Assembly: GCA_019636475.1 (NCBI GenBank)
Contig: JAHBXN010000003.1
Span: 248,001-312,000 of the forward strand
DNA: 64,000 nucleotides
Direction of reading: 5' to 3'
Origin: Phycisphaerae bacterium
Lineage (GTDB): Bacteria > Planctomycetota > Phycisphaerae > UBA1845 > UTPLA1
The notes beneath the pieces were generated by a model. That model did not search any database. It was not told where the DNA came from and saw nothing but the letters and a program-made list of their open reading frames with translations. A program made the translations under genes and the position numbers. Shown here in pieces: positions 6,155 to 10,726 of the stretch (positions are counted from its first letter, which is position 1; every line of letters begins with the position of its first letter).

Positions 6155-6246
6155 CCTCCCGCGGCAATCTGAATTCGGGAACTCTGCACTTTCCAAATCC
6201 GGCTGAATTCTACTGGGGATTGATTATCATGGAGGGGGAGTAGCCT

Positions 6247-7158
6247 ATGCCGGAGCCAGGTCAAGAACTCTCTGCCTCGCTTTCGTTCGACCTTTCACGC
6301 GCGTCACTGTTTAATCATGATGTCTTTCGGCCGTTCCGCGTAAGCAGTTATCAGCCACTAAGTGATGCCATCACGACCCGGTTGCTGACACCGGATACGC
6401 CGGTACTTGTGTCAGAGATCTCTCCAACTCCCGTCGCGTTAATCACGACACAGATGGCATACCACCACGTCGCACAAGGAGAAATCGCCGGCCACCCCTG
6501 GCTGGTGTCTTTCTGAGTGGTTTGCAATTCCGGGGTCAGTATGATCCCTCTCATTGACGGCCGAATTCATCACTTCGGGCATCGTGGACTTTACAATGGT
6601 CTCTCAATTCTGGGGGACCATCGCACCGGGTCCTACTGGGATCATATCACCGGCGAGTGCGTCCACGGGCCGCTTCAAGGACATCGGATGCAGACCGGCC
6701 CGCTGATACACACCACCGCCGGACGAGCAGTCGACGACAATTACAAAACAGTGCTTGCCGTCTCGCGGCCCGGACTATTCGGGCGATGCATGGGTCGAAT
6801 TGCTGAATGGACGAGGCTCACTCGCCGAGGCTTTCTGCCGCCAGGCTTCCGCCGGACGATGGGGCCGGTCGATGCGCGTCTACCTGAAATGCAACTCGGA
6901 CTGGGAGTCTGGACTGATCGCGTCCAACGCTTCTATCCAATCGAAGACATTGCGTCGCATCCGGATGGAGCATTAGCCGATTTCGTGGACCCTCATGATA
7001 TCATCGTTGGAATAGACCTTCGCACACGCATCCCCTATGCGGAGTACGCGAATCATCGAACCGACTCCACCGGACCTCGACGACGACCGATGCAACTCAT
7101 GACCCGCTGGTACGGCTTCTGCCTTACATTTCCGGATTGCGAAATTTACCGGCGGTGA
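6247..7158 (+). CDS. DUF3179 family protein with in-frame UGA, candidate selenoprotein
   Basis: One continuous 303-codon frame interrupted by a single TGA (6514-6516, codon 90). Both halves match DUF3179: before the stop AYHHVAQGEIAGHPWLVSF, after it VVCNSG, then DGRIHHFGHRGLYNG, HRTGSYWDHITGECVHGPL and the closing WYGFCLTFPDCEIY. In the family the position of the TGA is the first Cys of a CxxC (typical form TYCPLC), so the product would read UxxC. ATG 6247 has GGGGGAG just upstream. A SECIS-like hairpin follows the TGA. DUF3179 has no assigned biochemical role; a redox role for the CxxC/UxxC is inference. If UGA is not read as selenocysteine, the product would be a useless 89-residue fragment. 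Confidence 0.8.
6525..6556 (+). promoter_or_regulatory. Candidate bacterial SECIS hairpin downstream of the in-frame UGA
   Basis: The transcript can fold as follows: lower stem 6525-6528 with 6553-6556 (CAAU/AUUG), an internal loop 6529-6531/6549-6552, an upper stem of seven pairs 6532-6538 with 6542-6548 (GGGGUCA/UGAUCCC, one G-U), and an apical loop GUA at 6539-6541. The loop starts with G and lies 22 bases after the UGA. This fits the published general model of bacterial SECIS elements (short apical loop with an early G, roughly 16-37 bases from UGA). The folding was done by eye. Confidence 0.6.
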
Positions 7159-7270: not shown

Positions 7271-10200
7271 CTACTCGAGCCGGCAGTTCTGATCACAACC
7301 GTCGCCGGCAGCCTGATTGCCGTCGTCGCACTGCTCACCCGGTTCGACGATTCCGTTTCCGCAAACGGCCTGCGGGCACGGCTGCTTGTCCAGAATCGCG
7401 TGAACGAAGAACGGGATATCGCTCAAGCCCGGACCATCGCCGTCAAAGTCAACGCACGCGCAATTGATCTGCGGATCCGGATTGGGAACACCCAGCAGGC
7501 AATTGACGAACGCCTGGATGTCCTTTCCGTTCAGCACGCCATCTGCAAAAACATCGCCGGGGCAATAGCAAACCGCTTCGCACACGCAGCAGAGATTGAT
7601 CGTGCCGTCCGAAAGAACCGTTCGGACCTCGCGGCAGACTGTGCCAGGCGGGCAGACGCCCTTACACGATGGACCATTGCCCGTCGCCATCCGGATCGTA
7701 CCTGTCGTTGAGCCGGACATTCCCGCGAGCGGGCCGCCCGGAGCGCCGACGAAGTCGATTCGGTACGTGATGTCGAAGAAGCTGTCCACCGCCCAGTTGC
7801 CACCAGGCAACTGTGTCAGCGTCGTATGACCCGGGCTTGGCAGACCGAAGTCCGTCCCGCCGACCACGCGGAGCAGGTCGAAGTCCGGATCACCCGTGAT
7901 CTGACCGAACATCCGGAACATGTCCGTATCAAACGACTGGACCGGATCGCCTGGCGAGCGTGGCGCGGTATGCGCTTCGCACGAGAGCGGAATCGAGATC
8001 GGTCGGCTGAAGGTGGACAATGCGCCCGTCCCTTGTGCCTGGAACTGGATGTCGGAGTTGAAGCAGTCCTTCTGACCGCCGAGACTGCCGCCCGCCACTT
8101 CGCAAATGTTCGGTGGAATCAGTTGCGAGCATACCGTCGGCGTGCCTGCGTTCTCGTTGCAGATGAAGTTCGTGTGGATCGGAGCCAGTTGAATCGACGT
8201 GCCCGGCGGCAGACCATCCAGAATCATGTGGACATCGCTCGGGCTGAGATAGGCGCATCCGGCCGGGGGCAGCACGACTGTGCCTCCCGCGTCTGCAACG
8301 ACGCACGGATTTCCGCCGCCACGCGGATCGGCTCCGTCACCCGGGTTCCCGTCGCCGCTTCCACCACCAGCGAGCTGAACGCGACAAGAGTCATCACGTC
8401 GGCACTCACAACTGGTCACGGTCGTCTGACCTGTGGCAGGGTCGAAATTAACGCATGTCGGAACGCAAGCATGACCCGGCACGTCGCAAGGAGCCGGATT
8501 GCAGCCTTGGCCGTCAGGCCTCGGACCGCATTCGGGGACCGGACAGGTCGTGGTCGCACAAGTCGTTCCGGGGCCTTGAGGAATGCCGCCGAACTCAACA
8601 TGGCAACTGAGCGGATCGAGATCCAGACAGGTGCCATTGGGCAGACAGCATGCCTGTGCAAACGATTCGCACTCGCAGCAGACATTGATCGAACCGTCGG
8701 CCAGAACCGTCCGCACTTCGCGGCAGACGGTACCCGGCGGGCAGGAGCCCTGGCAGGCCGGTCCGCCACCCGTCGCCATCCGGATCGTACCCGTCGTTGA
8801 GCCGGACATTCCCGCGAGCGGGCCACCCGGAGCGCCGACGAAGTCGATTCGGTACGTGATGTCGAAGAAGCTGTCCACCGCCCAGTTGCCGCCCGGCAAC
8901 TGTGTCAGCGTCGTATGACCCGGGCTTGGCAGACCGAAATCCGTTCCGCCGACCACGCGGAGCAGGGTGAAGTCCGGATCACCCGTGATCTGACCGAACA
9001 TCCGGAACATCGTCGTATCAAACGACTGAATCGGATCACCCGGTGTTCGGGGCGCCGTGTGGGTCTCGAAGCTCAACGGAATGGTCACGCCACGGTTGAA
9101 GCCCGCCAGCGCGCCAGTGCCGTTCAGCGTGCCGTGCAGATTGGAATCCGAGCACTCCTGCTCACCACCCAGCGTACCGCCCGGCTGATCGCAATCGACG
9201 CCCGGGAATGGAGGCGGGAACGAGCACACACCGGCGGGTTGATCGCCGCGACAGATGAAGTCGGTGTGAATCGGGGCAAACTGAATCGTGGTGCCCGGCG
9301 GTAGACCGTCCAGAATCATGTGGACATCGCTCGGGCTCAGGTAGGCGCATCCGGCCGGGGGCAGCGTGACCGTGCCGCCGCCGTTATCCGGCACGACACA
9401 GGGATTGCCGCCGCCGCGTGGATCCGCGCCGTCACCGCCGCCCGGTGTGCCGCCCTGAATCACGGCATGGCACTCAGGCAGATATCGGCACTCGCAGGCG
9501 ATGACCGTCGACTGGCCGGTCGTCGGGTCAAATCGAATGCAACTAGGCTGGCACTCCTGTCCGGCGAGGGGGCAGCTAGTCTGCGCGCAGCCCGTTCCAT
9601 TTGGAAGAGGAGCACATCCTCCGCCACCGCATGTCACGGTCGCACAACTGGTTCCCGGGCCTTGCGGCACTCCGCCACCCAGGTCGCACTCCCAGACTTC
9701 CAGATCGGCGCATCCCCCGGTCGGAAGGCAGCAGGCCTGCAACAAAGGAAAACAGTTTACATTCTGGCAGGTGCTGCCGGGGCCACCGGGAATACCTCCC
9801 TGAAGCTGGCAATCGGCAACGGGAACATTCTCAACGCACGCGCCGGACGGCAGACAGCATGCCTGGTTGACGTTAATCAGACAGTCAACCGTCAGGCAGC
9901 TCGAACCCGGCGCCTGGGCCGTGCCGCCAATCGACGCACATTCGGTGGTGCTCGACACATTAACGCACATGCCATTGGGCAGGCAGCAGGCCAGGCCGGT
10001 TCCCGGAGGAAGTCCCGCCACCATGTGAATCGTGCCCGTGGTACTGCCCGACATTCCGGCCAGCGGACCGCCCGGCGAACCGATGAAGTCGATGCGATAG
10101 GTGATGTCGAAGAAGCTGTCGACCGCCCAGTTGCCGCCCGGCAACTGCGTTAAGGTGGTGTGACCCGGGCTGGGCAGTCCGAAGCCAGAGCCGGCCGTGA

Positions 10201-10726
10201 TCCGAAGCAGATCGAAATCAGGATCACCGGGAGGCAACTGGCCCTGCATGAAAAACATGTCCGTGTCAAACGACTGCACCGGCTGACCCGGCGTTCGCGG
10301 CTGAGTGCGGACCTGACACTGGATCGGCATGGTCACCGGGCGAGAGAAACCGGCGAGAACGCCGGTCCCGTTCGCCACGAATTCACCCGTCGACTGGAAG
10401 CAGTCCACGTTGCCGCCGCCAGGAGCCGGGCCCTCGCAGACGCCGGGGGGCGGACAGAACGGGAATCCCTGCGAGCCGCCCTCGCAGATGAAGTTTCTGT
10501 GGATGGGAGCGAATTCGATCGTCGTTCCGGGCGGAAGGCCGTCGATGATCGCATGAACCTCAGAGGGTGAAAGATACGCGCATCCCGCCGGAGGCAGCGT
10601 CACGGTGCCTCCGCCATTATCGGGAACGACGCACTGCCCCGAAGTTGTCGAGGAAATGCCGAGCAAGACCGACACGCTACAAATACACAGCCAGTTACCT
10701 GCAACGAAACGCAATCTCAACGACAT
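7271..10726 (-). CDS. Large secreted Cys-rich protein with three repeated modules, dockerin-like region and C-terminal Cys-rich repeat
   Basis: A 1151-residue exported protein. Residues 1-31 form a signal peptide. Three copies of a ~205-residue module start with CVVPDNGGGTVTLPPAGC (or CVVADAGG) and end with TGTIxMA, at about 31-232, 436-648 and 799-1012; each carries GCAYLSPS, LPPGT and PGHTTLTQLPGGNWAVDSFF. Between them lie ~37-residue Cys-rich repeats beginning ACCLPxG (four copies) and segments such as TVCREVRTVL. Residues ~1053-1121 look like a dockerin-type Ca-binding pair (GVLNGKDIQAF, DFDGDG). The last 30 residues, CGNGIVEPGEQCDDGN onward, match the Myxococcus-type Cys-rich (DUF4215) repeat. 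GGGAG precedes the ATG. Function unknown; an extracellular or surface structural role is inference. Confidence 0.88.
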   Translation of the reverse strand: MSLRLRFVAGNWLCICSVSVLLGISSTTSGQCVVPDNGGGTVTLPPAGCAYLSPSEVHAIIDGLPPGTTIEFAPIHRNFICEGGSQGFPFCPPPGVCEGPAPGGGNVDCFQSTGEFVANGTGVLAGFSRPVTMPIQCQVRTQPRTPGQPVQSFDTDMFFMQGQLPPGDPDFDLLRITAGSGFGLPSPGHTTLTQLPGGNWAVDSFFDITYRIDFIGSPGGPLAGMSGSTTGTIHMVAGLPPGTGLACCLPNGMCVNVSSTTECASIGGTAQAPGSSCLTVDCLINVNQACCLPSGACVENVPVADCQLQGGIPGGPGSTCQNVNCFPLLQACCLPTGGCADLEVWECDLGGGVPQGPGTSCATVTCGGGGCAPLPNGTGCAQTSCPLAGQECQPSCIRFDPTTGQSTVIACECRYLPECHAVIQGGTPGGGDGADPRGGGNPCVVPDNGGGTVTLPPAGCAYLSPSDVHMILDGLPPGTTIQFAPIHTDFICRGDQPAGVCSFPPPFPGVDCDQPGGTLGGEQECSDSNLHGTLNGTGALAGFNRGVTIPLSFETHTAPRTPGDPIQSFDTTMFRMFGQITGDPDFTLLRVVGGTDFGLPSPGHTTLTQLPGGNWAVDSFFDITYRIDFVGAPGGPLAGMSGSTTGTIRMATGGGPACQGSCPPGTVCREVRTVLADGSINVCCECESFAQACCLPNGTCLDLDPLSCHVEFGGIPQGPGTTCATTTCPVPECGPRPDGQGCNPAPCDVPGHACVPTCVNFDPATGQTTVTSCECRRDDSCRVQLAGGGSGDGNPGDGADPRGGGNPCVVADAGGTVVLPPAGCAYLSPSDVHMILDGLPPGTSIQLAPIHTNFICNENAGTPTVCSQLIPPNICEVAGGSLGGQKDCFNSDIQFQAQGTGALSTFSRPISIPLSCEAHTAPRSPGDPVQSFDTDMFRMFGQITGDPDFDLLRVVGGTDFGLPSPGHTTLTQLPGGNWAVDSFFDITYRIDFVGAPGGPLAGMSGSTTGTIRMATGNGPSCKGVCPPGTVCREVRTVLSDGTINLCCVCEAVCYCPGDVFADGVLNGKDIQAFVNCLLGVPNPDPQINCACVDFDGDGPGLSDIPFFVHAILDKQPCPQAVCGNGIVEPGEQCDDGNQAAGDGCDQNCRLE
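7681..7980. repeat. Long direct repeat, copy 1 (within the modular protein gene)
   Basis: Near-identical to 8770-9069 with an offset of 1089 bases, exactly 363 codons, so the reading frame is kept. It encodes the end of the third protein module. The high identity suggests recent internal duplication or gene conversion. Confidence 0.85.
8770..9069. repeat. Long direct repeat, copy 2
   Basis: Near-identical to 7681-7980 over most of its length; it encodes the end of the second module. The two copies differ by scattered substitutions and diverge towards the right end, after about 9030. Confidence 0.85.
10018..10317. repeat. Long direct repeat, copy 3 (more diverged)
   Basis: Same module end as the copies at 7681 and 8770 but with many more substitutions, offset 1248 bases (416 codons) from copy 2. 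This suggests an older duplication than the one separating the first two copies. Confidence 0.75.

Follow-up and report, generated by a model that had tools for sequence, protein, structure and literature searches.

Proteins of the DUF3179 family (PF11376), with the motif UxxC/T, are counted among the known selenoprotein families in two reviews, which credit them to Zhang & Gladyshev 2007 (PMC9312934, PMC13188914). The hairpin that directs bacterial selenocysteine (Sec) insertion, the bSECIS, is modeled with a loop of 3-9 nt that has a G within its first two positions, a stem of 4-16 bp, a distance of 16-37 nt from the UGA, and an MFE of at most -7.5 (PMC13188914). The gene described here, from a Phycisphaerae genome of 4.4 Mb in 18 contigs, shares with the known DUF3179 selenoproteins the family, the UxxC, and the Sec/Cys exchange but belongs to a different lineage; since the reviews already include DUF3179, it adds a new member to an established selenoprotein family, and the suggestion of the initial annotation that the family might be new in this respect falls away. 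To the described members we add an account of the Sec machinery, covariation in the SECIS, a domain duplication, and a fold comparison. The structural part, i.e., the duplication and a Rieske-like fold without its ligands, may be new; a narrow literature search returned no report of either for DUF3179. We infer that the TGA at 6514-6516 is very probably read as Sec, yielding a Sec-containing DUF3179 protein, as initially proposed, and this reading is backed by the machinery of the host, the TGA/Cys column among homologs, a SECIS-like hairpin, and an association with selA.

Within the window, the whole 64,000-nucleotide stretch of DNA that was analyzed, ATG 6247-6249, TGA 6514-6516, and the terminal TGA 7156-7158 share one frame that translates into 303 residues and contains no stop or frame break besides the TGA at 6514-6516 (see the table). 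Two codons ahead of the ATG, a TAG in the same frame (6241-6243) sets the 5' limit. Coordinates and translation agree with the initial annotation on the single in-frame TGA of a 303-codon frame, on the good ribosome site, 6 nt before the ATG, and on the placement of the TGA at the first Cys of CxxC, as the U of U90-V-V-C93. The read-through protein matches PF11376 (DUF3179) over residues 43-260 in a single alignment (67.3 bits, 2e-18; curated cut-off 27), so the claim that both halves match the family stands for the continuous alignment; taken separately, the 3' part scores 36.7 bits but the 5' part falls below detection. An NCBIfam search of the protein gave no match. The standard code splits the gene into two ORFs of 89 and 213 residues, and one intact selenoprotein gene thus appears as broken ORFs, as do dozens of DUF3179 genes in the phylum. 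The preceding ORFs on the same strand are, we presume, tmk-like and holB-like. Converging on the gene from the minus strand (7271-10726) is a frame for a Cys-rich protein of 1151 residues that contains three similar repeats (CVVPDNGGGTVTLPPAGCAYLSPS...) and ends in what we take to be a dockerin-like C terminus.

Table. Features of the DUF3179 gene and its product
Feature	Position	Strand	Description and basis
Ribosome-binding site	6231-6240	+	GGAGGGGGAG, 6 nt 5' of the ATG; from the sequence
Probable DUF3179 selenoprotein gene	6247-7158	+	303 codons, then stop TGA 7156-7158; PF11376 alignment of 67.3 bits spans the in-frame TGA
First core domain, residues 45-165	6379-6741	+	Contains UxxC and WDHITGE; beta fold predicted to be Rieske-like
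In-frame TGA, very probably read as Sec (U90)	6514-6516	+	102 related genes have TGA or a Cys codon here; the genome encodes Sec machinery
UVVC motif, residues 90-93	6514-6525	+	From the translation; C90 and C93 invariant in 25 close relatives
Predicted bacterial SECIS upper stem-loop	6532-6548	+	Stem 6532-6538/6542-6548, 7 bp; loop GTA 6539-6541
Conserved WDHITGE, residues 131-137	6637-6657	+	W131 present in every Sec and Cys row
Second, shortened core copy without UxxC, residues 190-303	6814-7155	+	hhalign to the second core of long members

A scan of genome contigs for DUF3179 yielded 24 loci from several phyla (Chloroflexota, Myxococcota, Planctomycetota, Desulfobacterota, Bacillota, Gemmatimonadota, Krumholzibacteriota, Pseudomonadota, Bacteroidota, and others), and the codon matching TGA 6514 in these loci is TGA, TGC, or TGT and nothing else. 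With loci of the gene's own phylum added, the relatives comprise 63 TGA and 39 TGC/TGT genes (64 TGA genes including that in the window), and the TGA/Cys pairs at the UxxC column that were to be expected of a selenoprotein family are found across phyla. The same column is Ser, Asp, or Asn in a few distant members (L050, L051, L055, L057), and its remaining non-Cys rows are second-core segments. A chance TGA is excluded because the same TGA occurs in 63 other genes; the UGA lies in frame, faces Cys, and recurs in homologs elsewhere, the pattern by which a bacterial selenoprotein is recognized. Genomes with TGA forms also carry selA more often (48 of 53) than those with only other forms (37 of 68; Fisher p 1.6e-5), in counts that are uncorrected for relatedness and refer to the gene's own phylum, the 68 being genomes with a listed selA status; selA is present in 145 of 255 genomes without DUF3179. 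The five TGA-form genomes in which selA was not detected are draft assemblies, 77-92% complete. On the tree, about eight Sec/Cys changes are needed, at least five of them on well-supported branches, with no direction assigned. Divergent TGA forms (UPLCL, UAACR, USMCR, and UPLTF in L089, L116, L124, and L126) sit on long branches and may represent separate subfamilies.

The protein would consist of two tandem copies of a beta domain that is Rieske-like but lacks the Rieske cluster ligands. Long DUF3179 members are tandem duplications of one domain (hhalign 99.7-99.8%; L058, L092, L100, L111, and others); the first core of the window protein aligns to their first core (hhalign 99.9%) and its C-terminal half to their second (97.5%, E 6e-12). 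A direct comparison of the two halves of the window protein gave no match, and the duplication is visible via the longer members only. The AF2 model (pLDDT 90.6) places the first core close to Rieske ferredoxins such as 2QPZ and 2DE5 in a fold search (VIA Z 6.9, rmsd 2.5, 91 residues), a Z that is weak alone, and the second core of a distant member comes closer still (Z 9.2, rmsd 2.8, 92 residues of a 103-residue chain); Foldseek E-values for the Rieske rows exceed 0.01 and are likewise weak. Unlike Rieske ferredoxins, DUF3179 has an extra UxxC hairpin and neither cluster ligand boxes nor detectable sequence kinship: none emerged when the core was compared by profile with 13 Rieske domains, the CxH...CxxH ligands are absent from the translation, and Pfam gave no Rieske match. 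Searches with the single protein or a profile as query found no relative of solved structure by sequence. Given the weak Foldseek E-values, the absence of sequence kinship, and the missing ligand motif, we refrain from classing it as a Rieske protein.

Within the first core, U/C90, D124, W131, and G141 show little or no variation. The UxxC is confined to this copy; the second core has Asp (usually), Ser, or Asn at the U90 position. H133 is found in 50 of the 64 Sec forms vs. 10 of the 39 Cys forms and T135 in 53 vs. 9, an association due in part to shared descent. C93 is present in 57 of the 64 Sec forms, with Ala or Thr in the other seven, which means that a UxxC disulfide cycle cannot operate in every member. 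This pattern points to a selenol partnered by His, with resolution usually by the Cys93 thiol. The presumed active site, found in the first copy only, would thus combine the U90 selenol, a usual but non-obligatory resolving Cys93, and the conserved Trp, His, and Glu of WxHxTGE. This candidate site is narrowed down by the comparison of Sec with Cys forms, by the duplicated fold, and by the Sec-tracking residues. We favor, with some reserve and in line with the redox suggestion of the initial annotation, selenol/thiol redox chemistry, e.g., reduction of a peroxide, a disulfide, or another small oxidant, which could proceed (i) through a U90-C93 selenenylsulfide or (ii) with an external thiol; the TGA/Cys exchange at U90 and the C93 of 57 of the 64 Sec forms count for such a role. 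The neighbors of 16 relatives offer no hint of a substrate, with no recurring family and at most two of 60 proteins in each.

Alternatively, the inserted Sec could serve in metal sensing or transfer rather than in thiol redox catalysis, with U90, C93, and the conserved His residues as ligands of a metal ion or cluster. The resemblance to Rieske iron-sulfur domains, with Z up to 9.2, and the location of most conserved His, Cys, and Glu residues in the first core would suit such a site, yet the Rieske CxH..CxxH ligands are missing, C93 is not obligatory, and the UxxC hairpin precedes the strand that leads toward the Rieske box 1 position, which by register would place it at the other end; judged by the register of the alignments, the UxxC hairpin and WDHITGE appear to be at the opposite end of the sandwich from the Rieske cluster loops. 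We consider metal binding unlikely and keep redox chemistry as the preferred role. A broader proposal, plausible but tentative, is that DUF3179 is a two-domain, horizontally spread relative of the Rieske fold that has no iron-sulfur cluster and carries a selenol/thiol active site, UxxC plus WxHxTGE, on another loop of its first domain. If true, it would be a redox enzyme class with an unrecognized fold.

For the insertion of Sec itself, SelB with Sec-tRNA(UCA) would recognize a hairpin just downstream as the ribosome reaches UGA 6514-6516, and Sec would then be placed at position 90, as sequence and comparison indicate. The candidate hairpin, GGGGTCA-GTA-TGATCCC, agrees with the bSECIS model in all four respects: its GTA loop starts with G and begins 22 nt 3' of the TGA, its stem has 7 bp, and its energy is -8.1 kcal/mol. 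At least six of the seven pairs form at register 46 or 48 in 46 of the 64 TGA genes vs. 5 of the 39 Cys genes (p 4e-9), and at register 49, with a 6-nt loop, the hairpin occurs in 11 TGA vs. 3 Cys genes. Among close relatives, all 18 of 18 TGA genes hold the stem in the same register with six or seven of seven pairs, and pair 18-30, which joins two third codon positions, changes in a compensatory manner (G-C, C-G, A-U, U-A, U-G, and G-U). When the window gene was recoded synonymously 1500 times, a hairpin of this kind survived in 64 cases. Single-sequence folding of 50 nt against dinucleotide shuffles was not significant (z -1.06); the case for the putative SECIS is carried by the comparative test, not by single-sequence folding. 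An Rfam search of the window found nothing, and we know of no general bSECIS model in Rfam.

The host genome encodes selA, selB, selD, and tRNA-Sec (selC), i.e., the full machinery looked for in a bacterium with selenoproteins, and the genes that the initial annotation had proposed to search for are all present. Its one tRNA-Sec (66.1 bits) has a long variable arm and a UCA anticodon and is confirmed by ARAGORN as SeC(tca); a second above-cut-off Rfam match for tRNA-Sec proved to be a tRNA-Leu. In this genome selB and selA adjoin. The selD gene (C2:328684-329607; L019:1501-2424, minus strand) is itself a UGA gene, with the UGA in CAGUAGKL, where SelD proteins usually have their Sec. With this second UGA gene in the same genome, the machinery hardly resembles a relic; SelD belongs to a family unrelated to DUF3179, and its likewise UGA-containing gene suggests that the machinery is in use.

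That the TGA is instead a true stop, leaving a fresh pseudogene or an 89-residue product only, is very improbable. TGA is a stop by default, and related genomes lack a close ortholog, but numerous genes from many phyla retain this TGA, always opposite Cys and with intact frames behind it, the 3' part remains alignable over its full length, and both the hairpin and the Sec machinery exist. Decay, moreover, would yield TGA, TAG, and TAA alike; among the DUF3179 matches listed from 392 genomes of the phylum, 62 have exactly one TGA, two TAG, and none TAA, a skew that speaks against it. A sequencing or assembly error for TGC or TGT, for which one base would suffice, has a negligible chance given that more than 60 other genes share TGA at this codon and that the SECIS-like hairpin is also present.

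No close ortholog of this very probable selenoprotein gene was found in 60 genomes of the same order, which makes it a sporadic gene, and its nearest relatives by tree path are in Chloroflexota. Sporadic horizontal transfer would be the simplest account of this distribution; a plasmid search returned one distant match, from Thiothrix, at 22% identity. In Thermoactinomycetaceae, tandem DUF3179 paralogs place Cys and Sec forms side by side (L030:2182-5064, L028:3001-4782). The Cys copy of Marinithermofilum (L030:2182, TGC) retains a full 7-bp SECIS-like hairpin beside its TGA paralog and looks like the product of a recent Sec-to-Cys change.
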